DNA of 46,729 bases, taken from positions 1 through 46,729 of the IMG/VR virus record IMGVR_UViG_3300030520_000040, one strand, 5' to 3'. Both the position numbers and the translations under genes were made by a program. This stretch comes from a virus. The notes under the pieces were generated by a model that saw only the letters and a list, made by a program, of their open reading frames with translations, was not told the DNA's origin and did not search any database. Below are positions 1,565 to 46,703 of this stretch, one piece after another. How positions within the stretch are numbered: the first letter of the stretch is position 1; every line of letters starts with the position of its first letter.

Positions 1565-2896
1565 CTAGTAGACGGCGGAGCGGACGAGGGCGGCGGGCGG
1601 CACCGCCGCGAGCAGCCGGGCGGGAGGGGGGGGGACCGCGAAGATCATGCCGAGGGCCCAGCCGTCGCCGGCGTTGGCCATGCCGAGCGACCAGCTGTAC
1701 GTCGACCCGGCCGAGGCGGGAGTCTGGTAGGAGGTGACGCAGTAGTCGCTCGCCCCGGCGACGTTCGTCCAGCCGCCCGAGCTCGGGCCGCCGGAGGTGA
1801 ACCCGAAGTACGAGGCGCACGCGGCGAGGACGATCGCGGGGACCGAGCCCAGCGCGCTCGACGGGCCCATGGAGGCGGTCGCGGCGTTCCCGTGGGCGCC
1901 GCCCGGCACCGCTGCGGAGAGGACCGGGCGCGCCCCGAGGCCGCCGACCTCGATCACGTGCAGCCCGTCGGTCGGCGCCGAGGCCCCGCCGGCCATGGTC
2001 GCGCCGACGGAGCTGCTGCTCGCGGATATGCTCGGGAGCGCCCAGATGGCGCAGAACATGTCGCCCGTCTCGGTGCCCTGCAGGCTGAAGACCTGCTGCG
2101 TGCCGCTGGCGTCGCCGTTGGTGTAGGTCACCCCGTTGTACTGGACCGAGGTGACGCTCGCCGACGCCGACCCGAACGAGTAGACGCAGTAGAAGAGCGT
2201 GTTCCCGATGGCCTTGGCGGCGGCGGTGGTGCCCGAGTAGCCGCTGATGACGTCGGAGGCGACCTCGTACACGCCCGTGGGGGCGGGCTTGAGCGCGACC
2301 ATCACGCCGGACCAGTAGGTGGCGGTGGACGCGGTGCCGGTCTTGGCGCCCGTCGCGCCCGACGACGCCGACTGGTTGTCGGCGACCATCATGGCCGGGT
2401 TGGACGTCTGCGCCCCGTTCGTCGCCCGCGACGTGTACCCGGACGGCGGGGTGATCGCGTAGCTGACGTTGGAGTAGCCGTCGTCGTTGCCGGCGAACCA
2501 CAGCACCCAGTCGCCGGCCGTCCCCACGGTGATCGACGCGACGGCGAGGCTCGTGGAGTTGGACGAGGAGGTCGGGGCGACGACCGTCGCGTCCAGCGCG
2601 CCCGCCCCGCCGGCGACCGTCGCGATGACGACGGCGACGGAGTTCCCGCCGAGCCCGGTGATCGACCAGGACGCGCCCTCGGTTCCGTCCGCGAGCCGGT
2701 ACAGGAACGCCCCGTAGTCGTTCGGGTCCTGGGTGACGGTGAACCCGGTGCAGGCGACCGACCCGCTGCCCGCCCCGAACAGGTGGATGAAGATCCAGTC
2801 GCCCGCCGCGGTGCCCGCCTGCTTGCTGACGCTGAACGACGAGACCCCGCCGGAGGACTGCGAGGTGGCCGGAGTCGCCCGGTAGGACAGGCCCAT
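1565..2896 (-). CDS. Minor tail protein with two repeated beta domains
   Basis: 443 residues, ATG at 2896. The protein seems to contain two copies of one domain: the first ends near residue 205 with YWSGVMVALKP, the second at the C-terminus with GWALGMIFAVP, and both contain a GDW/GDM-F-W element and Ser/Gly-rich strands. This duplicated layout occurs in minor tail proteins of actinophages. It sits 13 bases downstream of the GH16-like gene. It probably forms part of the tail tip or fiber; no catalytic motif is seen. Confidence 0.7.
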   Translation of the reverse strand: MGLSYRATPATSQSSGGVSSFSVSKQAGTAAGDWIFIHLFGAGSGSVACTGFTVTQDPNDYGAFLYRLADGTEGASWSITGLGGNSVAVVIATVAGGAGALDATVVAPTSSSNSTSLAVASITVGTAGDWVLWFAGNDDGYSNVSYAITPPSGYTSRATNGAQTSNPAMMVADNQSASSGATGAKTGTASTATYWSGVMVALKPAPTGVYEVASDVISGYSGTTAAAKAIGNTLFYCVYSFGSASASVTSVQYNGVTYTNGDASGTQQVFSLQGTETGDMFCAIWALPSISASSSSVGATMAGGASAPTDGLHVIEVGGLGARPVLSAAVPGGAHGNAATASMGPSSALGSVPAIVLAACASYFGFTSGGPSSGGWTNVAGASDYCVTSYQTPASAGSTYSWSLGMANAGDGWALGMIFAVPPPPARLLAAVPPAALVRSAVY

Positions 2897-2909: not shown

Positions 2910-4286
2910 TCATATGATCCCCGCCATCAGCAGGCCGAACGCGGAGCCGGCCGCCCCGATGGCCAGCATCGCGCCGGACGGCACATTGCAAGAGGAGGAC
3001 CCCGACAGCTCCGTGCTGATGGTCCCGGCCGCGGCCGTCGCGTTGATCGCGCCGATCGTGTCGCCGATGTTCAGGATCGTGAAGCCGCCCGACGCGGCGG
3101 TGAACTCGGCGTCCACGGCGGAGCTGAGGGCGACGGCCAGCACGGCGCCCGGGGACGCCACGGTCACCGACGGGGGCGAGTACTCCGTGACGCCCGTCGC
3201 GATCGCGTCGGCCGACGCCCCCGCGAGGACGACCGACCCCAGGGGGAGGCCCGTGACCTCGGTGAGGTTCCCTTCGGCCCAGTTGACGTCGGTCGCGGTG
3301 AAGACGACGGTGACCGAGTCGATCGCGGCCGCGTCTATGCAGGAGGCGAGGGCGCAGAACCCGTAGAGGCCGTCGCCCGCGTCCCACGACCCGGCGGCCG
3401 GCGGGTTCTGGCTGTAAGCCGAGGTGCTGTAGGCCCAGTCGTTGCCCGCGCTGTCGGTGATGCCGGCGATGCCGAACGGGGAGTCTGCGGTGGACCAGCA
3501 CCCGACCTCGAGGATCAGCGTGTTCCCGGCCGTGGTGGTGAAGTCGTCCGCGGAGATGGTCGCCGACGACGCTCCGGGGAGCGCCACGTTCTGGACGACG
3601 CTGGGACCTGCCGCCGGCACCCAGCCGTAAACGTAATCGATCTGCGCCGCGTACCCGATGCCGTAGGCGCTCGTGTTCCCGGCGCCGTTGAGCGGCAGGA
3701 TCGACCACGCGCCGCCGGAGTCGTCCGTCGTCCACGTCTTGACGAGGGCCCCGTCCCACCAGAACTCGACGGTGCTGGCGGTGCGCACAAGGGTGGAGGT
3801 GTGCCAGGCGTTGGCCCAGTTGCCAGACGGGTTGAACGGGCCGGACTGCTGGTTCCCGCCCGAGTAGTAGTGGTAGTTGACGGACGGCCCGGACCCGTTG
3901 ATCTCCCAGAAGTCAGCCTCTCCGTTAGCCGGCCAGTCCTGGCCGGACGCGAAGATGACGCCCCAGTTCCACGGGTGGGCGCTGTCCGGGCCGGGCGAGT
4001 AGATCCTGGCCTCGACGCAGCCCCCGACGGGCATTGCCCAGCCGTTGACGCCGGCGCCGTCGAGGGGGTTGCTGCTGAGGTACGCGCCGGAGGTCGCCGA
4101 CGCCACCGTCAGGTACAGGATGCCGCCCGCCACCGTGGAGTTGCCGGCCGCGCCCAGGCAGCTGGTCCCGTTGATCGCATAGCCGTTGAGGCTGGCCCAC
4201 TTTGTCGGATCAGGCGCGCCGGTGTAGTCGAAGTCGTCGCCGAAAACCTGCGTCCAGGACCCGGACGGCCCGGTCGGGTTAGGCAC
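2910..4286 (-). CDS. Tail protein with GH16-like glycan hydrolase domain
   Basis: 458 residues, ATG at 4286. Residues 10-235 look like a GH16 (laminarinase/beta-glucanase) jelly roll: VFGDDFDYTGAPDPTKW at the start, a G-LYLTV strand, GGCVEARIYSPG, and GEADFWEING at 122-131, which supplies the family's E-x-D-x-x-E active-site signature (E123, D125, E128). Residues 240-458 resemble the repeated beta domain of the neighbouring 443-residue tail protein. Such proteins can degrade capsule or wall glycans during adsorption. The domain match rests on visible motifs; activity and substrate are inferred. Confidence 0.75.
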   Translation of the reverse strand: MPNPTGPSGSWTQVFGDDFDYTGAPDPTKWASLNGYAINGTSCLGAAGNSTVAGGILYLTVASATSGAYLSSNPLDGAGVNGWAMPVGGCVEARIYSPGPDSAHPWNWGVIFASGQDWPANGEADFWEINGSGPSVNYHYYSGGNQQSGPFNPSGNWANAWHTSTLVRTASTVEFWWDGALVKTWTTDDSGGAWSILPLNGAGNTSAYGIGYAAQIDYVYGWVPAAGPSVVQNVALPGASSATISADDFTTTAGNTLILEVGCWSTADSPFGIAGITDSAGNDWAYSTSAYSQNPPAAGSWDAGDGLYGFCALASCIDAAAIDSVTVVFTATDVNWAEGNLTEVTGLPLGSVVLAGASADAIATGVTEYSPPSVTVASPGAVLAVALSSAVDAEFTAASGGFTILNIGDTIGAINATAAAGTISTELSGSSSCNVPSGAMLAIGAAGSAFGLLMAGII

Positions 4287-4316
4287 TCCCGCTCAGCCCC
4301 CGCGGCCCGGGCGCCA

Positions 4317-4835
4317 TCAGGAGGCCAGCCCGAGCACTGCGCCCTGGTACGCCCACTCTCCCGCGCCGCCGTTGAGGGCGCTGTCAAAGCGAAAGCCCAC
4401 GTAATCGGTGCGGCCCGACGTCGCGGTCCAGGACGGCTGCCCGCCCGCCCCGAAGTCGAACACGCTGTTGAACAGGGGCGTGTAGCTGCCGCCGTACTTG
4501 ACGGCGATCGTGATCGGCTGCCCGTTCTTCGGGTTCGACGGGGCGGCCAGGGTGTGCGATGACCCGCCGAGCGTCCACCGGAAGTCGTTGCCGAGCGCCG
4601 CGTTCAGCGGCACCGACGAGCCGTCCGTCAGCGACGTGACGGCCGGGACGACGGCGCCGGTCGCAGGCGACGTCAGGTAGGCCGCCAGCTGGGCGAGCGT
4701 CATCTTCTTGTCCGACCCGCCCGGCCCGGCGGGCGGCGTCGACGTGTCGTTGGGGTCGACGACGAGCAGGAGGACCCCTGCGACGATCGCCCCCGTGGTG
4801 ATCGCGGACAGCTGCGAGACTTCGTAGTTCGTCAC
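4317..4835 (-). CDS. Small tail-associated protein with N-terminal hydrophobic helix
   Basis: 172 residues from GTG at 4835 (VTNYEVSQL), with a GGGAGGTGG ribosome site upstream; the longer upstream reading is low-complexity Arg/Pro and is rejected. Residues 10-27 (SAITTGAIVAGVLLLVVD) form a hydrophobic segment, followed by TSTPPAGPGG and KKMTLAQLAAYL. The C-terminal 100 residues are beta-rich and contain SGRTDYVGFRFDS. It is the first tail-array gene after the plus-strand island and lysis cassette. Probable virion or tail fiber-associated protein; specific role unknown. Confidence 0.65.
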   Translation of the reverse strand: MTNYEVSQLSAITTGAIVAGVLLLVVDPNDTSTPPAGPGGSDKKMTLAQLAAYLTSPATGAVVPAVTSLTDGSSVPLNAALGNDFRWTLGGSSHTLAAPSNPKNGQPITIAVKYGGSYTPLFNSVFDFGAGGQPSWTATSGRTDYVGFRFDSALNGGAGEWAYQGAVLGLAS

Positions 4836-4881
4836 GGCCGGCCACCTCCCGGGGGTGACCGCGCGGCGCGGCCGGTTGCTG

Positions 4882-4894
4882 GACGATGGCCGCC
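4882..4894 (+). promoter_or_regulatory. Putative leaderless promoter -10 (GACGAT, N7, ATG)
   Basis: GACGAT at 4882-4887 is followed by exactly seven bases and the ATG at 4895. No Shine-Dalgarno sequence precedes that ATG. The same A at position 2 and T at position 6, spaced 6-7 bases from the start codon, recur before all seven plus-strand islands. Confidence 0.45.
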
Positions 4895-4984
4895 ATGGGG
4901 CACCGGGGAAGAGCGGATCGCGCCGCGGCGGCGGCGGAGGCCGGGGTGATGGCGGCGCTGGCGAGAGCGCAGCAGGAGCCGTGA
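4895..4984 (+). CDS. 29-residue small protein, first gene of a plus-strand island
   Basis: ATG at 4895 to TGA at 4984 encodes MGHRGRADRAAAAAEAGVMA and ten further residues, an Ala/Arg-rich helix. It stands directly behind a leaderless-type -10 element and its stop overlaps the GTG of the next frame (GTGA), the same coupling seen in the other plus-strand islands. The composition gives no function. Support comes from context rather than similarity. Confidence 0.35.
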   Translation: MGHRGRADRAAAAAEAGVMAALARAQQEP

Positions 4985-5172
4985 CGCGCTGGCCGGCATG
5001 GCACCCCAGGGCCAGCCTGCACGTCTGCGGTGGCGACGACTGCCCGTACAGCAACGCCGACGATGGCGCCCATGCGCCGGAGTACGCCGAGAGCGGGCTC
5101 TGCTCGTGGGGCGGCGAGGGGTGTCAGACTTCGGGCTTGCGCTGGCGGCCTGGCCGCGTGGCGGGGTGGTGA
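4981..5172 (+). CDS. 63-residue Cys-containing small protein
   Basis: GTG at 4981 overlaps the previous stop by 4 bases. The product (VTRWPAWHPRASLHVCGGDD...) has cysteines in VCGGDDCPY and later LCSWGGEGCQTSG, which could form a small zinc-binding site. Cys-rich mini proteins of this kind occur in other plus-strand islands here. It ends just before the tRNA-like element. Function unknown; called on codon pattern, coupling and island context. Confidence 0.4.
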   Translation: MTRWPAWHPRASLHVCGGDDCPYSNADDGAHAPEYAESGLCSWGGEGCQTSGLRWRPGRVAGW

Positions 5173-5226
5173 CGCCCTTAAACGTCGCGTGCCCGCGTGG
5201 CTGCGTAGCCGCTGGCGCACCTAAGC

Positions 5227-5300
5227 GGCCGAGAGGCCAGGGTGGTTGCGGGTTCAAGTCCCGCCAGGGCCTAGGCCCTGTAGCTCAGTTGGCAGAGCAG
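5227..5300 (+). other. tRNA-like element: 3' half followed by 5' half
   Basis: 5248-5264 is a perfect T-arm (GCGGG stem, TTCAAGT loop, CCCGC), followed by CAGGGCC at 5265-5271, the 3' strand of an acceptor stem. Immediately downstream, 5274-5300 reads GGCCCTG, TA, then a D-arm (GCTC, AGTTGGCA, GAGC, A). GGCCCTG is exactly complementary to the upstream CAGGGCC. No matching 5' acceptor lies upstream of the T-arm and no T-arm lies downstream of the D-arm. I see no normal anticodon arm, so a working tRNA is not supported. It may be tandem tRNA remnants, a permuted tRNA or a recombination scar. 5173-5226 holds nothing else I can name. Confidence 0.5.
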
Positions 5301-5338
5301 CGGAAGGCGCGTTCGGGTTCGCCCGGGCGCGCTTTCCG
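5301..5338 (+). terminator. Strong hairpin at the end of the plus-strand island
   Basis: 5301-5311 pairs with 5328-5338 over 11 base pairs (one G-T), and the loop holds a second stem CGGG-TTCG-CCCG. It directly follows the D-arm-like sequence and lies between the plus-strand island and the convergent minus gene ending at 5370. No U-tract follows, so it is a terminator candidate of the actinobacterial hairpin-only kind, or an RNA-stabilising structure. Confidence 0.5.
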
Positions 5339-5369
5339 TATTCAGCCCTGCGCCACGTAGACGGCGTCC

Positions 5370-5786
5370 CTAACTGCCGCAGCAGACGCATCGGCTCTTC
5401 TCGCCGGCCGGCCAAGGCTCCAGCACGTAGGCGCGGTCAACCTTGACCAGCCCGGCGCGGCTCGGGTGCGGATCCCAGGCGATCTCCCCGCCGTCCCCGA
5501 CGACCGCATGGTCCCCGGAACCGCGCCTGGTGGACCCGACGACGATCGAGCGCCCCTGCGGGATGCCGTCCACCTGCCGCCAGTCGAGGCCCCGGCCTCG
5601 GAGCCACAGGCGGAGGGCGGGCTCCCACCATGTGAAGCTCCCGAAGTGGGCGACCGCGTCAAGGTCGAGGCCGAGCGCGGACGCGACGGACGCTTGGAGG
5701 CAGTTGCCGAGGACGCCCTTCGCCTCAAGCTCAGGGCTGTAGAGGATCGACTGGGTGACCTCGGCCGGGGCTTGCGGGAGGATCAC
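5370..5786 (-). CDS. Putative papain-like cysteine peptidase family protein
   Basis: 138 residues from GTG at 5786 (VILPQAPAEVTQ), which gives a 4-base GTGA overlap with the endolysin stop; an ATG at 5807 is possible. A conserved core is visible: GNCLQASVASALGLDL (Cys nucleophile context), W-EPALRLWLRGRGL, GDHAVVGDGG (His) and WDPHPSRAGL (Asp). Cys, His and Asp in this order fit a papain-like fold, and relatives of this short family occur in phages and bacteria. Coupling to the endolysin suggests a role in lysis or wall processing, but that is inference. Confidence 0.6.
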   Translation of the reverse strand: MILPQAPAEVTQSILYSPELEAKGVLGNCLQASVASALGLDLDAVAHFGSFTWWEPALRLWLRGRGLDWRQVDGIPQGRSIVVGSTRRGSGDHAVVGDGGEIAWDPHPSRAGLVKVDRAYVLEPWPAGEKSRCVCCGS

Positions 5787-37323: not shown

Positions 37324-40300
37324 CTAGGCGCCGAGCGGGGACGAGGGGATCACTGCGCAGCGCCCGATGCACCCGCCGGGATGGGCGGGTGGCATGACGT
37401 CGCCGGACTGATAGGGCTCGCCCATCAGCACCGGGCCCTGCGCGGCGTTGGCGAGGCAGACCGGGCAGACTTTTTGATCTTCCGCTGTGGTCCAGATTCC
37501 CCAGGCCACGCTGTTCTGCATGTAGTAGTCGTGCGCGGAGAGCCCGGTGTAGATGTTGATCTGCGTCCCGACGAGCGTCACGGCGGTGTCCTCGTCGGCG
37601 AGGGCGTCCGACAGCAGGTCCCCGAGCTCGTCGAGGGTGTCCTGCGAGTCCGCCCAGTTCGCGTCGGCCCCGGCCAGGATGATCGCGAGCGCCCTGGCGT
37701 AGCCTGCGGCGATCCGCTCCGCGACCGCCTCGGCCGCGGCCTCGCTCTCCCCTTCGCCGCGCAGCAGCGCGTACAGGACCGCGAGGAGACCGGCCTCCCC
37801 GACCATGCTCAGCGCGCCGTCGGTGTCGCCGGGCGACTGCTTCGGCGGGGCCTGCCCGGTGACCGCGTTCGCGGCGGAGATAGCCCCGATCGCGTAGCCG
37901 TCGACCGCGATCGCCTCGGCGGACGACGCAGCGACGAGGGTGATGCCCTGCCGTGCGAGCCATGCCGCTATCCACGCCTCGGCAGCCTTGTTCCGGTCCC
38001 GCTTGCCCGGGGCCTTCCCGTCCTGCTCCGGATGGTCGGCGAGGTAGTCCCGGCCCATGTCGCGGGCTTTCGCCTTCGGGATGGCGGCCTTAACGGAGTC
38101 GCGGACCTTCGGGGCCCAGTGCGCGGCCGTCTTCTGGTCTAGCTTCCATCCGTGCCACGCTGGCGCTTTTGGGCCCGAGCCACCTGCCTTGGCGATGCCG
38201 GCGTGCCGGTGAATGGGAGCGTCCTCGTCGAGCCCGCAGGCGGCGCACGCGACGTGACACCCCTCGGCCGCGAACGGGTGCGGGACGTCCTGCGCGTCTC
38301 CGGACGTGCCGTCGATGCCGGCCCGCTGCCGCGCCCTCTCGCCGCGCTCGAGCCAGTCCATGCAGGCGCCGTTGTCGTCCAGGTCGCCGCCGCAGTCCGG
38401 GCAGAACGCGCACTTGGCGACGCTCTCCGGCTCGGCGATCGCGTCGTCCGTCGCGTCGTAGCCGAGCGCGGCCATGACGTCGTCGATCGAGGCGAGCAGT
38501 TCGGGGCGCACCGCCGGGTTGCCGGGAATCGTCTCCGGATCCCACCATGCGATCGCTTCCGCCTGGTCCCCGTCGGGGTCGTCCGGGTTGGCGATCATGC
38601 TGTCCGAGCGCACGGGCACCATCGCCTCGCGCTCGACCGTCCACACGATGCCCTGGTAGATCCCGGATGCCCACGACCCGGTCTGCACGCCGGGGGCGCA
38701 CGGGGATCCTGTTTCCTCCTGCCATTCCCGCCAAGCGGCCGCGAGAGGAGACTCGTCGCCCTCGAGGTGACCGCCGGGAAACTCCCACATGCCCGCTGCC
38801 GGGTCGCTGTCGTCGAGCGCCCGCTGCAGCATGAGCACGCGCCCGGTGTCTGCGGCGAGGACCGCGAGGCCTGCGACCGCGACTCCCCCGGCGTCCTTGC
38901 GGACGGCGAGCCGGCCGGAGTCGTTGAGGTTGTGGCCCGCGACCTTGGCGACTGCGCGGAACTCGAAGTCCCGCCACTCGCCCGACCGCCTGCGCGCCCT
39001 GCTGTAGCGGCGGAACGCCTGCATCTCCTTGGCGACCGTCGCCTGGTCGACCGGGCCGTCATCATCGTCCTCGCCGCCACCCCTGCCGTCGAGATCGTAG
39101 GAGTACAGGCCCGTGGCCGCGGTGATGCCCGCAGTGACGTTTCCGGCTGGGGCCGCGCCCTCGCCTTCCTTGGCGACCGGTGCAGCCGCAGGGGCTGGCG
39201 CGGAAGCCGGGGGCGGCGGCGGACTCGGCGTGACGGGCGCCGATGCCGCTGCGGCCGCCGCGGCAGCCGCAGCCGGGTCAGCTTCCGGCCCGTACTGCTG
39301 CACCGCGAGGCCCGGGACCTTGACCGGCGGGTTCGGCAGAACGCCCTCGACCGCGGCGAACGCCTTGTGGGGCAGCTGCGCGTTCTCGGCCGGTGCGGCG
39401 GTAGCCGGGTCGATCGGGCCGGCGACGGCGAGCATCGCCGACAGGGGGATCGGGCCGGACCGCTCGGTCCACAGAAACCGGGGGACCGGTTCGGGGTCGG
39501 TGATCCCGAACCGCCATTCGCGGACCTCGCTCGAGCTGACGGTGCCGTTCTTGACGTAGATGTCGTCGGACTGCGCCTGGTTGAGGCGGTCGTCCTGCTC
39601 CTCGCCGAGGTCGAACGAGAACTTCAGCGGAAGCTGCAGGTCTTCCTGCAGGAAGTCGGTCAGGATCTCCTGGATGTGCATGGCCATCGGGAGGTCGCCG
39701 ACGCGGTGCTGGACGTCGGCCTGCGACTCGCCGCTGGACTTGTTCACGCTCTCGGTGAATCCCAGGTCAGATGGCACAATCGAATACGCCGAGCAGTTTC
39801 CGACCCACGCCGGGCGCCCATTTCGGCGCACGTAGATCACGCCGTTCGGCACCGAGACGCAGTAGACCATGCCCTCGTAGGGCGTCACTTGGCCGTGGGC
39901 GGTGCGCAGCGGACTGGTCCGCTCGCGGACGATCCACGTCGGCTTGCAGTTGGTGACCAGCTTGCCCCGGATCACGCCGCCGTCGGACGGCTTGCGCGGG
40001 GAGACCGAGGCGTCGCGACCGCACTTCTGGAGGATCTCCTGCCAGTCGTCGGCGAGGCGCTGGCTGGCGGTGAGCATGTGCCACGACTTGCCGAGGTAGT
40101 GGTGGCCGTCGCCCTTGCATGCCCACGCCCAGAGAATCTCCAGCATCTCAGGGCTGAGATCCTTTATGTCCTCGGGGATGTACTTGCCGAACGAGTTCCC
40201 GAGCGGCACGAGGTATGCGTGGAGACGCATGTCCTGGCAGACCCAGTCTGCGGTGTTCCGGCACCAGTTGAAGGGCAGCGAGTCGAGGAGTTCCTGCATC

Positions 40301-41877
40301 TCGCCGAAGTACGGCGAGTCGGCGGCCTGACTGATGCCGACCTTGTAGGTCCGGGTCGGAGCGTACTTGCCATTGCCCGGCTGGAGGCGAGCGCCACCTT
40401 TACTGCCGCCAACGTGACCCTCGGCCAGCCACAGCCCGAGGAAGGCGACCCAGGTCTTCATCGGGATGACGAGTTCCGGACGCGTGACCGTGGTGAACGT
40501 GCCCTTCGGGCCCCTGTCCCGCTGCGTGTACGAGACGGCGGGAAGCACGAAGTTCTCCGGCGACCGGCCTTCCCAACTCGACCGCATGGGGATCATGTAG
40601 CCGCCCTTGCCGACGATCTCCCCGGCGGTCTTGATGAACTCCTTCGGGCGGGGGTGCTTCTTCGTCGGGAAGTAGGTCAGCAGCATCCGGTGATCCGGCG
40701 TGACGAGCAGGTCAAGGCTGTTCGACTTGAACGCCACCATGTCGCCGTTGTACGGCTCGGCGATGTGGTCGGTGGGCTTCTGCCACTCGAAACGGCCGTC
40801 CGCGCTGCGCGTTGCGACCTCGTCGCCGTCGGCGAGCTTCGGGAAACCCACCCACCCGCGGCGGGTCAGGATCTCGGTCTGCTCGTCGAGGCATGTCTTC
40901 CGCATAAGGAAGAGACTAAAGGCGTCGGTGAAGTCCTTCTCGTTCGTCCACGCCAGCTTCGACCCGCTCGGGATCCAGCGGATCTGGTGCTTCCTGGTCT
41001 GGTCGCCGAGCATGAACGCGTCCCAGTACTCCTGGAACTGCTCGATCTGGTCCGGGGACCAGGTGTCCGGCGAGCTCGCGAACCCTGCCGGCAGGTTTCC
41101 CGAGGTAAAACGTTCCAAAAAGTACAGTTGGAACCTTATGTCCGTATTTGCGTTAAGAAGGATGTCCTCGAGCGGGGCCGTCCCATAGAGACTGTCGTCC
41201 TGCGGGTCGTACGGCTCGTAGATCAGGTCCGAGCGAGTCAGCCAGTTCCACGGCAGCCCCTGCACGTACTGCACGTAGGCGGGCGCCGGGTCGTCGGGCG
41301 GGTTGCCCCAGTAGTCCTGCAGCGGGGCGATCATCGTGCCGTCGACCACCGACAGGCCGACGGCGCGGCCGGCCCGGTTCCGCATCCGGTACAGGGTCCC
41401 GGCGTCGTAGGACAGCACGCCACGCAGGTACTTCGACAGCCACGGCTTGAACAGCGTCTTGGTGTCGGGCCGCTTCAGGACGCGTTTGCCCTCCGCCACC
41501 TCGGCGGAGATGTCACCCTCCCAGCCGTCGGCCGCGACCAGCTTCCAGTCGAGGCTCCGCAGGCTGGCGATCCTGTGACGGATGCAGATGCGCGCTACGT
41601 CATAGGAGCCGATCAGGCCCTTGAGCGTCGAGAACGCGACGGCCTCGTGCGTCCTGGGCCGCGCCGAGATGTTGTAGCCGGCGACGAAGTCATGCGACCG
41701 CGGGGTCCGGCTGAACCCGTCGTACGGGCCGATCGGCTCACCGGGCGAGAACGGGCTCGTCGGCGTCATCTGCGCGCGCGCCTCGGCCGCCTCGATCTGC
41801 AGCGGGACGCCCGTGCCGAACCCCTTGGAGACCGGGGCGGGACGCTCGGCGAGGGCGGCGCGGGATCGGAGCGTCAT
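37324..41877 (-). CDS. Portal protein fused to Nudix and MuF domains, containing an intein
   Basis: 1517 residues from ATG 41877. Residues 1-328 plus 695-860 are the portal (YNISARPRTHEAVAFSTLKG, NTDIRFQLYFLERFTSGNLP, then CSAYSIVPSDLGFTESVNKS), forming the dodecameric DNA gate. Residues 329-694 are an intein. After an Ala/Pro linker, residues ~995-1135 form a Nudix domain with GGHLEGDESPLAAAWREWQEETG, a complete G-x5-E-x7-R-E-x2-E-E-x-G box. Residues 1156-1225 hold Cys clusters (CAFCPDCGG; CHVACAACG). The C-terminus is MuF/SPP1 gp7-like, ending TTAEDQKVCPVCLANAAQ and PPAHPGGCIGRCAVI. Portal-MuF fusions are known in actinophages; the Nudix insertion is unusual. The extein is about 1151 residues. 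Confidence 0.88.
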   Translation of the reverse strand: MTLRSRAALAERPAPVSKGFGTGVPLQIEAAEARAQMTPTSPFSPGEPIGPYDGFSRTPRSHDFVAGYNISARPRTHEAVAFSTLKGLIGSYDVARICIRHRIASLRSLDWKLVAADGWEGDISAEVAEGKRVLKRPDTKTLFKPWLSKYLRGVLSYDAGTLYRMRNRAGRAVGLSVVDGTMIAPLQDYWGNPPDDPAPAYVQYVQGLPWNWLTRSDLIYEPYDPQDDSLYGTAPLEDILLNANTDIRFQLYFLERFTSGNLPAGFASSPDTWSPDQIEQFQEYWDAFMLGDQTRKHQIRWIPSGSKLAWTNEKDFTDAFSLFLMRKTCLDEQTEILTRRGWVGFPKLADGDEVATRSADGRFEWQKPTDHIAEPYNGDMVAFKSNSLDLLVTPDHRMLLTYFPTKKHPRPKEFIKTAGEIVGKGGYMIPMRSSWEGRSPENFVLPAVSYTQRDRGPKGTFTTVTRPELVIPMKTWVAFLGLWLAEGHVGGSKGGARLQPGNGKYAPTRTYKVGISQAADSPYFGEMQELLDSLPFNWCRNTADWVCQDMRLHAYLVPLGNSFGKYIPEDIKDLSPEMLEILWAWACKGDGHHYLGKSWHMLTASQRLADDWQEILQKCGRDASVSPRKPSDGGVIRGKLVTNCKPTWIVRERTSPLRTAHGQVTPYEGMVYCVSVPNGVIYVRRNGRPAWVGNCSAYSIVPSDLGFTESVNKSSGESQADVQHRVGDLPMAMHIQEILTDFLQEDLQLPLKFSFDLGEEQDDRLNQAQSDDIYVKNGTVSSSEVREWRFGITDPEPVPRFLWTERSGPIPLSAMLAVAGPIDPATAAPAENAQLPHKAFAAVEGVLPNPPVKVPGLAVQQYGPEADPAAAAAAAAAASAPVTPSPPPPPASAPAPAAAPVAKEGEGAAPAGNVTAGITAATGLYSYDLDGRGGGEDDDDGPVDQATVAKEMQAFRRYSRARRRSGEWRDFEFRAVAKVAGHNLNDSGRLAVRKDAGGVAVAGLAVLAADTGRVLMLQRALDDSDPAAGMWEFPGGHLEGDESPLAAAWREWQEETGSPCAPGVQTGSWASGIYQGIVWTVEREAMVPVRSDSMIANPDDPDGDQAEAIAWWDPETIPGNPAVRPELLASIDDVMAALGYDATDDAIAEPESVAKCAFCPDCGGDLDDNGACMDWLERGERARQRAGIDGTSGDAQDVPHPFAAEGCHVACAACGLDEDAPIHRHAGIAKAGGSGPKAPAWHGWKLDQKTAAHWAPKVRDSVKAAIPKAKARDMGRDYLADHPEQDGKAPGKRDRNKAAEAWIAAWLARQGITLVAASSAEAIAVDGYAIGAISAANAVTGQAPPKQSPGDTDGALSMVGEAGLLAVLYALLRGEGESEAAAEAVAERIAAGYARALAIILAGADANWADSQDTLDELGDLLSDALADEDTAVTLVGTQINIYTGLSAHDYYMQNSVAWGIWTTAEDQKVCPVCLANAAQGPVLMGEPYQSGDVMPPAHPGGCIGRCAVIPSSPLGA
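39796..40893 (-). mobile_element. Intein with LAGLIDADG homing endonuclease inside the portal gene
   Basis: 366 residues, Cys329 to Asn694, followed by Cys+1 (695). Block A is CLDEQTEILTRRGWVGFPKL and block B SLDLLVTPDHRMLL. The two LAGLIDADG-type helices are FLGLWLAEGHV (479-489) and LWAWACKGDGHHY (582-594). Block F is GMVYCVSVPNGVIYVRRNGR and block G WVGNC. The residue before the terminal Asn is Gly rather than the common His. Removing it joins LFLMRKT to CSAYSIVPS, a continuous portal motif. Confidence 0.9.
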
Positions 41878-42206: not shown

Positions 42207-42656
42207 ATGGGAATCGTGCAGTCGCTCGAATGCGACGGGTGCGGGACGCGGGCAGGCACGCCCGGTGACCCGGTGACCATCCTGGCCGGGTGGCGGATCT
42301 TCGACTTCAGGCCGGTCCCGAGCGAGCCGCAGCGCAAGGCCGGGCCGCTCGCCGCGTGCCCTGCATGCTGGGCGGGGAAGACGTGCGCGGAACTGCTGGG
42401 GGAAACGTGGGCGTTCCTCGCAAGATCCGGGGCGTTACCGCGACTGGCGGAACATCGCGGTCCGGGCCTGCCTGAGAGCGGCGGCCGGGTCGAGAGGAAC
42501 CGCAGGGGCTTCCGGCTCCGGCTCGGGGTCGGCTTCGGCGAGCTCGCGCACACGACGGCGGGCCAAGGCGAGGCTTTCCGTCTCGGCCGCCACGGCGAGC
42601 GCTTTACGGCGGGCCCAGTCGATCCAACTCTGCGCGCCGCCGCCGAGGTTAATTAG
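42207..42656 (+). CDS. Zinc-finger-like island protein overlapping the terminase 3' end
   Basis: ATG 42207 (MGIVQSLECDGCGTRAGTPG). Residues 1-75 look real: CDGC and later CPACWAGKTCAELLGETW form a zinc ribbon. After residue ~78 the frame runs antisense to the large terminase for about 220 bases and becomes Arg/Gly-rich, so either the gene really overlaps or its native stop was lost by an indel. Convergent orientation. Function unknown. Confidence 0.5.
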   Translation: MGIVQSLECDGCGTRAGTPGDPVTILAGWRIFDFRPVPSEPQRKAGPLAACPACWAGKTCAELLGETWAFLARSGALPRLAEHRGPGLPESGGRVERNRRGFRLRLGVGFGELAHTTAGQGEAFRLGRHGERFTAGPVDPTLRAAAEVN

Positions 42657-44042
42657 CAGGTAGCGGGCTGCGTCGGGCAGGTGATCGTCGCCGTGGGTGT
42701 CGGCGTCTTCCGGGTCGCCGCTCTCGGCGTGCGGGAGGTCGGCGAGCGACCGGTAGAAGTTCCCGAGCGTCGAGAACATGTGGAGTCCCGGGCAGGTTTC
42801 CCAGCCCATCGCCCGGTGGTGCGGGCAGGCGGGCTTCTCCGCTAGGTAGGACCGGACGCGCTGCCAGCCGACGACCCGGGAGCCCTTCGCGGCCCTGGTG
42901 AGGTGGACGCCGTTCTCCGAGTAGACGTCGCTGATCGCCTTGGCGTCGCCGCGGGTGGCCCACATGGCGTCGTCTGCGTAGCGGGCGGAGATCTTCTCGT
43001 CTTCCGCCTCGGCGGCGAGGATGCGGCGCGCCTGCTCGGCCTCGCCTACGCCGGCGGCGTACGCCTCGCGGTAGAACCAGACACGCTGGTCCTCGTCGAC
43101 CGCCGCCCACAGGACGGCCCAGGGGTTGGCGAAGCCCCAGTCGATGCCGTTGTACCTGGTCCACGTGGCGGGCAGGTGCACGGGGTCGATGACGTGCCGG
43201 TCGCGGGACAGCTCGGGGAACATCTGGCCTGAGAACACGTCCCAGTTCCCGTCGAGGAAGGCGGCGCGGAGCTTCTCCGGCAGCGCCAGGAGGTCCGCCG
43301 CGTACTCGGGGTTAACGTGCGGGTTATCGGCGAGTCGGCTCGGGATGAACCGCACGGTCCGGCCGCGCTCGTCGGTGACGACGGCAGCGCCGAAGTTCGT
43401 CGCGGTGATGTACCGGGCCTTGACCGAGCCGTGGCCGGAGCCGCCCGGGTTGGCGCTCGAGCGGATGCCGAGGACGGGGATCTCCGCGCGGCCTGACCGC
43501 AGGCGGGACTCGAGGAAGGCGATCACGTCCGGCGGGGTGAGGGTCCGCTCGTCGAAGATGAGGAGCTGGAACTGGCCGCCCTGCCTGCGGGTGGCGTCCT
43601 TCAGGGTCTCCGCGTACCGGAACATGACGACGGAGCCGTTGGGGAACCGGAGCTCGTACTCGTTGCCGTTCCACTTCGCGCCGAGCGCGCCGGCGAACCG
43701 GAACGTCGTCGAGAGCTCGGCGAGCAGCGACTCTTTCAGCTCCGGGTAGGTGCGGCGGAACGCCCCGACGCGGATGCCGGGGTAGCGGACACAGGCCCGG
43801 ATCGCCTCGGCCACTAGGGCGACACTTTTACCGCCGCCCGAACTTCCACCAAAAAGTACGTCGAATTCTGTCGCATCGTGGAAGATCTGCTGTTTCGGCG
43901 TCGGCTCGTAGCCCAGCAGCCCGAACACGTCCACATGGCGGAGCTGCTCCGCCTCCTGCTCGCGGAGACGCTCGCGCATCGCGGCGAGCTGCGCGATCTT
44001 ATCGGGCGGCGCCAGTATCTGCGGGGCGGGCTTGGCGGGCAT
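42435..44042 (-). CDS. Terminase large subunit
   Basis: 535 residues from ATG 44042, overlapping the small subunit by 44 bases. The ATPase motor shows Walker A GGSSGGGKS (65-73) and Walker B LLIFDE (160-165), with SSANPGG as the coupling motif. The nuclease part begins YNGIDWGFANPWAVLW (Asp) and includes ARYADDAMW and DTHGDDHLPDAARYLL. The C-terminal 60 residues are Glu/Pro/Ala-rich. It cuts and pumps genome DNA into the prohead through the portal. Length is normal for the family. Confidence 0.95.
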   Translation of the reverse strand: MPAKPAPQILAPPDKIAQLAAMRERLREQEAEQLRHVDVFGLLGYEPTPKQQIFHDATEFDVLFGGSSGGGKSVALVAEAIRACVRYPGIRVGAFRRTYPELKESLLAELSTTFRFAGALGAKWNGNEYELRFPNGSVVMFRYAETLKDATRRQGGQFQLLIFDERTLTPPDVIAFLESRLRSGRAEIPVLGIRSSANPGGSGHGSVKARYITATNFGAAVVTDERGRTVRFIPSRLADNPHVNPEYAADLLALPEKLRAAFLDGNWDVFSGQMFPELSRDRHVIDPVHLPATWTRYNGIDWGFANPWAVLWAAVDEDQRVWFYREAYAAGVGEAEQARRILAAEAEDEKISARYADDAMWATRGDAKAISDVYSENGVHLTRAAKGSRVVGWQRVRSYLAEKPACPHHRAMGWETCPGLHMFSTLGNFYRSLADLPHAESGDPEDADTHGDDHLPDAARYLLINLGGGAQSWIDWARRKALAVAAETESLALARRRVRELAEADPEPEPEAPAVPLDPAAALRQARTAMFRQSR

Positions 44043-44520
44043 CGTTCAGCGCGATCTTCCTGGCGATCTCGGCCATCTCCGCGTCCAGCGCGTCCTCGGT
44101 GATCACCTCGACGCGGGACTTCGCCGCCGGGTACAGGTCCCGCAGCCGCAACTCCATGTCGTCGATCTTGGCCAGCCGGTCGAGCGCGCGCAGGACCGGG
44201 TCGTCGTCGAGGAGCGGCAGGCCGTCCGTGCCGAGGACGATCTTGCCGCCCTGACTGACGTGGAAATGCCTGGCCGTCAGGACCCGCTGGGCGGCCCGCC
44301 GGTAGTCCTGCAGCCGGTCGTAGAACGCCTGCCGGGCCTCCGCCTGCTCGAGTGGGTCGGCGGCGTTGTCGCGGGCGGCGCGGCGGACTGCGTCGAACGC
44401 CGAACTGGGGCTCGCGAACGTCATCTCGGCCGCGATCTGCCGGTAGCTCAGGCCCCTGCGGAACAGGTCGTAGGCCTTCTGGTCGCGTTCCATGGTCTTC
44501 GCGGTGCGGCGGGCGGGCAA
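43999..44520 (-). CDS. Terminase small subunit
   Basis: 173 residues from a TTG start at 44520 with a strong GGAGGTGA site. The N-terminal helix-turn-helix AYDLFRRGLSYRQIAAEMTF is followed by SPSSAFDAVRRAARDNAADP and a helical oligomerisation region (EQAEARQAFYDRLQDYRRAA, RALDRLAKIDDMELRLRDLY). It recognises packaging sites and hands DNA to the large subunit. Gene order small-large-portal is classical. Confidence 0.82.
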   Translation of the reverse strand: MPARRTAKTMERDQKAYDLFRRGLSYRQIAAEMTFASPSSAFDAVRRAARDNAADPLEQAEARQAFYDRLQDYRRAAQRVLTARHFHVSQGGKIVLGTDGLPLLDDDPVLRALDRLAKIDDMELRLRDLYPAAKSRVEVITEDALDAEMAEIARKIALNDARQARPADTGAAR

Positions 44521-44571
44521 CTGCTCACCTCCGCGCGGGGTGTTCGGGCTTCCATGTGTTCGGCGAACGGG

Positions 44572-45398
44572 TCAGGTGAAGGAGACGGGGACGGTGCCGC
44601 CGTCAGGGAGGACCCGGAGCGGGATGTCCTGCGTCGCCTCTTCGTAGCGGCGGGCGATGACATCGATGTACGCGGGCTCCATCTCGAGGATGGCCGCCGT
44701 TCGCTTCGTGCGGTGCGCGGCCATCAGGGTTGAGCCTGAGCCGCCGAAAACGTCGAGCACCGTCTTGCGCTCGCCCTTCGGGTCCGTCACGCCGAAAGCC
44801 CACTCGGCTAGGGCCACGGGCTTCTGCGTCGGGTGCACGCGCTTGCCGCGCTCAGAGGCTCGGACCATGCCGTTCCACATGTGACGCAGCAGGCGGACTG
44901 CGCCGGGGTGGTTCGTCCAGGCAAGCTCGGCGTCGGCGAAGTTGCCGGTGTTCTCTTTATCCCAGATCAGCCAGCAGGAGGCGTCCGGCAGTCCGGCCGA
45001 TGCTGCGTAATGGTTGCCGCCCCACCAGACCTGCACCGCGGCCGGATACTCGGCCAACAAGAGCCGGAAGGTATCGGCGGCAGTCTCGGTGGTCTCGTCG
45101 CCCGTCACGGGCAGGTAGTGCGACGACTCGATGACCTTGCCGCGGGGGTTGGCCTTCATCCCGCCGAACGGCCCGCCGCCACCGACCTTGCCGATGCCGC
45201 TCACGATGGCTACGCCGTACGGCGGGTCGGTGTAGACGATCCCGATCTCGCCGAGGTCTTCGGTGACTCGCTTCAGGTCATCGGGGTTCGTCGCGTCGCC
45301 GCATAGGAGGCGGTGCGGGCCAAGGCGGTACAGGTCCCCAGGAGCGGACGCCGGTTCCGCGGGCGGTTCCGGCGAGTCGTCCGGGTCACCCCCCCCCC
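44572..45398 (-). CDS. DNA methyltransferase domain (beta-class), out of frame with ParB part
   Basis: About 271 residues beginning right after the G tract (DPDDSPEPPAEPASAPGD). Motifs: YRLGPHRLLCGDATNPDDL, catalytic DPPY in VYTDPPYGVAIVSG, the segment VQVWWGGNHYAASAGLPD, and AdoMet-binding DVFGGSGSTLMAAHRT near the C-terminus. DPPY before FxGxG indicates a beta-class N6-adenine or N4-cytosine methyltransferase. It has no start codon of its own in good context; it is read only if the 10-G tract at 45389-45398 loses one G or the ribosome shifts. Likely protects phage DNA from host restriction. Confidence 0.82.
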
Positions 45399-45832
45399 GT
45401 GGGGTCAGGCTCGTCTTCGGCCAGGAGGTCGGCGAGGTCTTCCTCGGTCCACCCGGTGCCGTCGAAGTCGCCGTCGAGGCTGGAGAGCAGTTCGGCGAGG
45501 GCGTCGCCGTCGTACCGCTCGCCCGTATCCGGATCTGGCAACTCGCCGATCTTGTTGTCCGCGAGCGTAATGCGCCGTGCCTCGGCATCGTCGCACTCGA
45601 TCAGCTCGCACCGGGCGGTGTCGAAGCCCTCGGCCTCGAGCGCGTCGCGGGTGTGGTTGCCCGCGAGGATGACGTACTTGCCGTCATGGGAGCGGACGAC
45701 GAGGGAGCGGTACTGGCCGTGGCGGCGGATGCTCTTGCGGATCTCCTCGACGTTGCCGCGGCGGGCGTTGCCGGGGTAGCGGGTCAATTCACTCAGCCTG
45801 ACGTCGCGCGTCTCCAGCCACTTCGCTGCCAC
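45386..45832 (-). CDS. ParB-like N-terminal domain of a split ParB-methyltransferase
   Basis: 148 residues from GTG 45832 (VAAKWLETRDVRLSELTRYP). ParB/sulfiredoxin motifs are visible: YPGNARRGNVEEIRKSIRRH, YRSLVVRSHDGKYVILAGNHTRDALEAEG and ARRITLADNKIGELPD. The frame ends in GGG-TGA right at a ten-G run. Elsewhere in phages this domain is commonly fused to a DNA methyltransferase, whose sequence follows immediately in another frame. The two frames together would give a protein of about 418 residues. Confidence 0.8.
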   Translation of the reverse strand: MAAKWLETRDVRLSELTRYPGNARRGNVEEIRKSIRRHGQYRSLVVRSHDGKYVILAGNHTRDALEAEGFDTARCELIECDDAEARRITLADNKIGELPDPDTGERYDGDALAELLSSLDGDFDGTGWTEEDLADLLAEDEPDPTGGG

Positions 45833-45842
45833 GTCACCCCGC

Positions 45843-46370
45843 TTAACAGGCCCGTGAGCGCCATTCGTCGAACAGGTCGTCTTGCCGCCAAGCCGGAACG
45901 GTCGACCGACTCACCGGTCGGCGTGCCGGCCGACGTGGCGTCTTGGCTGGGCGAAGGTACGCAATCGCGTCTTTCAGGCGCTCGGGACTGTCGCCGAGCA
46001 GGCCGATGCCACGATTGCAGGCGCGGCAGAGAAGCCCGCGCACCCTGCCCGTCAAGTGGCAGTGATCGATGCTGCAGCTTTTATTGCCGGTTCGCACGAG
46101 ATCGCGCGCGCAGATTGCGCAACGGCCCGACTGCCGCTCCCACATAAGTTCGTAATCTGCCTCGGTCAGACCGTAGCTGGCGAGCCGGGACTTGCGCTGC
46201 CATGCCTTTTGCTGCGCCCTCAGCTTGATTCCCTGCTCGGTCGTCAACGCCCGGGCCTTGACTGCCGGGTGACCGAGTTTGCTGAACTTGGCGTAGTGCT
46301 TGCTGCACAGGCCGCTGGCGTTGATCGCCGGCTCATCGCAAGTCATGGTGATGCACGTACCATTGGCCAT
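45843..46370 (-). CDS. HNH endonuclease, recombination endonuclease VII-like
   Basis: 175 residues from ATG 46370, with GAGAGG six bases upstream. The N-terminal zinc-type segment TMTCDEPAINASGLCSKHYA resembles the finger repeats of the HNH gene at 18962. The nuclease core follows: YGLTEADYELMWERQSGRCA, ICARDLVRTG, CSIDHCHLTGRVRGLLCRAC, NRGIGLLGDSPERLKDAIAYL, matching endonuclease VII-type enzymes (two CxxC pairs around DHCHxTGxVRGLLC). A basic tail ends DDLFDEWRSRAC. It has its own promoter leader and lies upstream of the ParB/methylase gene. Confidence 0.88.
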   Translation of the reverse strand: MANGTCITMTCDEPAINASGLCSKHYAKFSKLGHPAVKARALTTEQGIKLRAQQKAWQRKSRLASYGLTEADYELMWERQSGRCAICARDLVRTGNKSCSIDHCHLTGRVRGLLCRACNRGIGLLGDSPERLKDAIAYLRPAKTPRRPARRPVSRSTVPAWRQDDLFDEWRSRAC

Positions 46371-46703
46371 GTCGGGCCTCTCACACAGGTTCGACCATGC
46401 CCGGGGGCGGAAAAACGATGCTCTAACATCGCCGCTCGCCGGGACCTTACATCGAAAAGTATACCGTAATCGATCACGCCTTGTGTTCGCCTCGGAACGC
46501 GCGGCGACACTCAACGGCTGGCTGGCCACGGTGAGGGATGGTGACTTTCCGCAGGTCAGCGTCTCGCGCCTTGCGAGCGCCCGCGTCAGCCTCCACGCGT
46601 GCCGGGCGGCCTCGGGCGCATCCGCGTGCCCCGCTTCGCAGCAGGGCTTGCCGTCCGTGACCGCCCAGTGCCGCAGGTCCGTCGCGGTGACGAGGACTCT
46701 CAC
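46371..46703 (-). CDS. Small protein whose frame reads into the HNH gene
   Basis: GTG 46703 overlaps the stop of an upstream gene (GTGA). VRVLVTATDLRHWAVTDGKP, CCEAGHADAPEAARHAWRLT and SLTVASQPLSVAARSEANTR look like genuine protein for about 77 residues. Then the frame enters the AT-rich promoter leader of the HNH cassette and continues, without a stop, into the HNH protein. The native C-terminus was probably replaced by the insertion. Function unknown. Confidence 0.5.
46441..46466 (-). promoter_or_regulatory. Promoter and conserved leader of HNH cassette (copy A)
   Basis: On the minus strand TATACT (46459-46464) is followed by TTTCGATG and TAAGGTCCC. The same arrangement precedes the HNH gene starting at 19768 and the broken HTH gene at 12419. 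The surrounding 100 bases are AT-richer than the window average. Confidence 0.5.

Follow-up and report, generated by a model that had tools for sequence, protein, structure and literature searches.

We found that a ParB-DNA methyltransferase (MTase) gene in the window, a viral record of 46,729 bases with 70% G+C from a soil-type phage, was split at a homopolymer run of ten G residues. From its sequence, the locus is a candidate for a phage-borne phase switch driven by slippage, and we consider this reading probable. In the proposed mechanism, replication slippage would change the number of G residues in the linker run. At 9 G (or at 12 or 6), a single protein would contain both the ParB-like domain and the N6/N4 MTase (ON), while at 10 or 11 G the frame would break past the ParB domain and no complete MTase would be produced (OFF). 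The phage population would then hold methylating and non-methylating members, for which the most plausible purpose would be a hedge against host restriction or methyl-sensing defences. Among the three options raised in the earlier note, phase switching was favoured by the run lengths of 9, 10 and 11 found in relatives, by a single-G difference between two contigs (L118 and L119), and by the exclusive association of at least 10 G with a split frame. We infer slippage as the cause, reversibility of the switching, methylation of the phage DNA and a benefit from it.

The locus lies on the minus strand, flanked by an endonuclease VII-type gene and terminase genes (Table 1); the isolate phage Elener likewise has annotated small and large terminase genes adjoining its ParB-MTase. 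In profile searches, the ParB ORF matched PF02195 with an E-value of 1.7e-5, which narrowly misses the curated cut-off, and the ParB-like family phrog_723 with an E-value of 5.8e-39. The MTase profile phrog_498 spanned both reading frames, with positions 33-169 on the ParB ORF and positions 176-434 on the MTase half, which indicated that the two are pieces of one protein family. The order of a phrog_498-type fusion, a ParB-like domain followed by the MTase, was present in the window, and its single open reading frame was split at G10. The DPPY and FGGSG (FxGxG) motifs, which were conserved in the alignments, were intact in the window MTase half. By inspection, the arginine of the ParB P motif (GxxR) was found to be replaced in the window and its close relatives (GNHT or GNHQ), while L010 reads GGNMR; the P-motif arginine of a ParB CTP-binding switch was thus absent from the window. 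Elsewhere in the window, a 1,517-residue ORF (37324-41877) begins with a portal domain and carries a NUDIX domain at about residues 1004-1117, which makes it a portal fusion of unusual size.

Table 1. Features at and around the ParB/MTase locus of the window (positions in the window).
Feature	Position	Strand	Remark
Terminase large subunit	42435..44042	-	PF03237
Gene in terminase small subunit position	43999..44520	-	Function inferred from position; best PHROG match weak and differently named
N6/N4 DNA MTase half	44572..45387	-	PF01555, E 2.4e-12; out of frame with ParB
ParB-like N-terminal domain ORF, 148 aa	45386..45832	-	TGA directly after the G run
TGA stop closing the ParB frame at G = 10	45386..45388	-	
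G10 homopolymer (C10 on the plus strand), proposed switch, Gly linker codons	45389..45398	-	
Out-of-frame ATG within the ParB gene, sole upstream start of the MTase frame	45586..45588	-	No evident ribosome site
Upstream gene with endonuclease VII (HNH) domain	45843..46703	-	PF02945, E 4e-23

The arrangement of frames at the run agreed with the earlier note. The C10 tract was at exactly the position given there, the ParB frame ended in DPT-GGG-stop (ACG GGG GGG GGG TGA), and the MTase continued in another frame that can be joined to ParB only by a number of G divisible by three. In all nine sequences considered, including that of the window, the joined frame (ON) corresponded to a multiple of 3 G. 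Within the run the linkers differed by single bases; outside it, their length varied by whole codons only, so that ON is always a multiple of three. The stop directly after the run was not conserved, as L118 translates about 100 codons further out of frame. The earlier note had also stated that the MTase lacks a start of its own. This needs qualification for the window, where an upstream ATG is present, although this ATG is not conserved and lies inside the ParB gene, out of its frame. In L118, L121 and L123, the MTase frame has no ATG, GTG or TTG ahead of the catalytic DPPY, so independent translation of the MTase half was rejected there, whereas for the window, with its one chance ATG, the rejection was only partial. 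An intact MTase therefore requires fusion in these three split relatives.

To place the run among relatives, the fused query was searched against 2.9 million viral contigs. Most relatives had the gene in one frame, in line with the claim that families elsewhere are fused; however, several close relatives were split at the same run, among them a contig with 76% identity and G10 (L036) and one with 75% identity and G11 (L037). Most of the run-bearing contigs came from a pattern scan that required at least 7 G ahead of the linker; it recovered eight contigs: L118, L121, L122 and L123 with G10, L119 with G11, and L120, L124 and L125 with G9. L118 and L119 are the same contigs as L036 and L037, respectively. 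The three G9 contigs were fused (L120, L125 and the contig-truncated L124), and the four G10 contigs, the window and the G11 contig were split, which gives three genes in frame and six out of frame in different phages; these run lengths come from assembled contigs, in which homopolymer counts of 10-11 can be miscalled, possibly off by one. Over 3,452 shared bases, L118 (G10) and L119 (G11) were identical except for one G in the run, and over their 6,257-base overlap they differed by one mismatch and this single-G indel; this comparison involves two contigs only. No near-identical pair of ON and OFF contigs was found, and the sole direct change in length, from G10 to G11, joins two OFF alleles. 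The contig ends clustered upstream of the run in L119, L121, L122 and L124 were set aside as evidence, since shared ParB sequence could explain them.

Three further scans set no requirement for a G run. In the ParB-only scan, all six contigs with a ParB 73-83% identical to that of the window carried the run, and none did so at 59% identity or below. The terminase-based scan revealed four close phages that carry the module, each of them with the run; a fifth close phage (L148) lacked the module. The linker motif DPDDxPEPPAEP was found in 72 contigs; at least 9 G were present in eight of these, five of which were split, and none of the other 64 was split (Fisher p = 4e-6, a guide only, as the contigs are partly related). 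L261, which is close to L120, has the same linker peptide (PMGGGGDPDD) encoded with only G6 and is fused, which shows that the protein does not require the run. DNA nearly identical to the searched window region was absent from the phage collection, and the exact flanks of the window's run had no match in IMG/VR. The ParB-MTases of isolate phages were less than 60% identical, and the two that were examined, Elener and Danyall, were fused without a run; the species genomes yielded only distant relatives of the window gene. Among the more distant relatives, L006 has a G9 run at a different place in the ParB-MTase linker (1034-1042) and is fused, which could be convergence or chance. In L112, a related MTase gene contains a 33-base direct repeat with three G8 runs (3128-3201), in frame. 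L014 encodes a ParB domain 55% identical to that of the window with no MTase (3890-5709), and the gene overlapping it encodes a P-loop (GPSGSGKST) and may end in an acetyltransferase.

The long run at the linker site occurred more often than expected by chance. In 115.7 kb from eight of these contigs, G/C runs of 5, 6, 7, 8, 9 and 10 bases numbered 212, 23, 4, 0, 4 and 5, respectively, and eight of the nine runs of 9-10 bases were at the linker site. In the window, 28% of glycines were encoded by GGG, and in these relatives GGG was retained at only 20-50% of aligned GGG codons. The bases that flank the run varied (ACG, GCG, ATG or GTG before it; TGAC, CGGAGAT or CGGTGAT after it), while the run itself stayed pure. 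A contingency locus is expected to have a pure mononucleotide run of at least 8 in coding sequence that is conserved at the locus, a difference in length between otherwise identical genomes, and both in-frame and out-of-frame alleles. We found all three here, the second in the comparison of L118 with L119. Two other long runs were observed. A coding-strand C9 (1626-1634; AVPPPPAR) lies near the C-terminus of an unnamed gene of the window (1565-2896, minus strand); it was set aside as a second switch, its gene being unbroken and the next gene starting about 14 bases past the stop. A G10 (L146 4013-4022; IMGVR_UViG_3300040759_000032, 44512-44521) lies in a C5-cytosine DNA MTase gene (PF00145) of the contig from which L125 comes; the frame changes at this run, but with an apparent second frame change downstream the gene may be damaged.

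All MTase halves were found to be unbroken from the run to their ends. Between the window and L118, which are both split, the MTase showed a dN of 0.175, a dS of 0.717 and a dN/dS of about 0.24, with 23% of residues differing; the fused pair L125 and L034 gave the same dN/dS (0.25). Judging from these rates, purifying selection acts on the MTase half, also where both copies compared are split. Non-triplet gaps were also counted on nucleotide alignments, but the swapped MTase cores made this count too noisy for use. In the structural model of the fused L125 protein, residues 4-138 form a ParB-like fold, and the MTase domain follows after a stretch modelled with low confidence (residues 140-149), which is the site of the run; whole-codon changes in this linker should therefore be tolerated.

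The domain behind the linker was variable. L118 and L121 had ParB, the run and its flanks in common and differed in the middle of the MTase, the N6/N4 MTase of L120 was a different one, and a third kind occurred in L122 and L124, all behind the DPDDxPEPPAEP linker. MTase cores have thus been exchanged among L118, L121, L120, L122, L124 and L125, while ParB, the G run, the linker and the C-terminal end (PVSFT or PVTFT, from which the end of L120 differs) were mostly kept. This exchange suggests recombination of specificity modules, and the different MTases behind a constant front indicate that the proposed switch is carried as a front module. In a wider reading, which we regard as evenly poised between right and wrong, a constant ParB-plus-poly-G front would be recombined with different DNA MTases, so that phages would randomly toggle methylation of their own genomes and could change its sequence specificity; such a cassette would be a viral counterpart of bacterial phase-variable restriction-modification.

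The pattern of split and fused genes was also weighed against other explanations. In a small ParB tree, the split window gene, L118 and L123 grouped together (support 0.87), and L125, L120 and L261 were all fused; a few events could therefore explain the pattern, which counts against a phase switch. The clustering, as if the alleles were stably split, is also what would be expected if polymerase or ribosome slipped on the run in a programmed manner, so that a G10 or G11 phage always made some full-length fusion beside the short ParB. Such programmed slippage would further account for the intact MTase kept under selection in split copies, and in the window a TGA followed by C comes immediately after the run. 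However, all three lengths occur, although G10 and G11 would have to slip in opposite directions and G9 not at all, and the stop after the run is not conserved, as noted for L118. A programmed ribosomal frameshift would have a fixed direction and site in all members, which was not found here, and transcript slippage is best documented on A/T runs and less on G runs. We therefore consider programmed slippage unlikely, though deserving of some weight.

A miscounted homopolymer, in which the true number is G9, the gene is normally fused and the tenth G arose by mistake in sequencing or assembly, would fit the mostly fused relatives, and several platforms are prone to errors at runs of 10 G. Against it, G10 or G11 also occurred in independent contigs from different metagenomes, L118 and L119 agreed at every other base of the shared 3,452, and a long pure run that is kept while the flanks and the MTase change cannot be an error. 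Plain error is thus unlikely to account for the whole locus; for the window contig the exact count rests on assembly, and we consider a miscount rather improbable as the cause of its split. The window copy, taken on its own, is frame-broken and could be read as a dead gene, with an MTase inactivated by frameshift and now decaying. This is very improbable given the intact catalytic motifs, the reading frame without a further break up to the conserved C-terminal PVSFT end and the low dN/dS between the split window and L118 copies; further stops or lost motifs were likewise not seen in the MTase of the split relatives. Phase switching remains our preferred reading, and the locus has the look of a real on/off switch, not of an isolated sequencing error.

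Bacteria are known to use phase-variable MTases against phages. If the phase-switch reading is true, phages would hedge as well; this could be why plating on restricting hosts varies, and a two-sided game between phage and host would become testable. In practice, such genes will be labelled "ParB" plus "truncated MTase" by virus gene callers, and true variation may be lost when homopolymers are polished.

Fusions of a ParB-CTPase fold with an N6_N4 MTase (PF02195 and PF01555) have been reported to be common in phages, and a survey of ParB-fold fusions suggested anti-defence roles for the phage MTase fusions (PMC12704722). The window gene has the same domain order as these fusions (phrog_498), but in its group the fusion hinges on a G9-G11 run and the P-motif arginine is replaced (GNHT). 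Programmed frameshifting in phage genes, such as those of tail chaperones and in Listeria phage PSA, similarly joins two overlapping frames at a particular site; its site and direction are fixed, whereas in the window group the length varies and the G9 copies need no shift. In the literature searched, no phage-encoded MTase was described as being switched by a homopolymer run. By analogy, the strongest outside support for slippage-driven phase variation comes from pglX of Streptomyces coelicolor, together with a Helicobacter poly-G MTase. In pglX, a change between G8 and G7 switches the Pgl phage-defence MTase at 1e-2 to 1e-4 (PMC4365076). Like the window gene, this actinobacterial DNA MTase gene has a similarly long G run within its coding sequence; however, pglX serves in host defence, whereas the window gene is phage-borne and has its run in an interdomain linker. 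In the Helicobacter MTase, one added base in the poly-G tract yields a functional fusion protein (PMC12003011). The phase-variable Mod/Hpy MTases of Helicobacter, Campylobacter and Neisseria (PMC12003011, PMC4889913) likewise give a truncated product or a functional fusion depending on poly-G length. These are bacterial restriction-modification genes, in contrast to the window gene, which has no recognised adjacent restriction partner, lies beside terminase genes and begins with a ParB domain.
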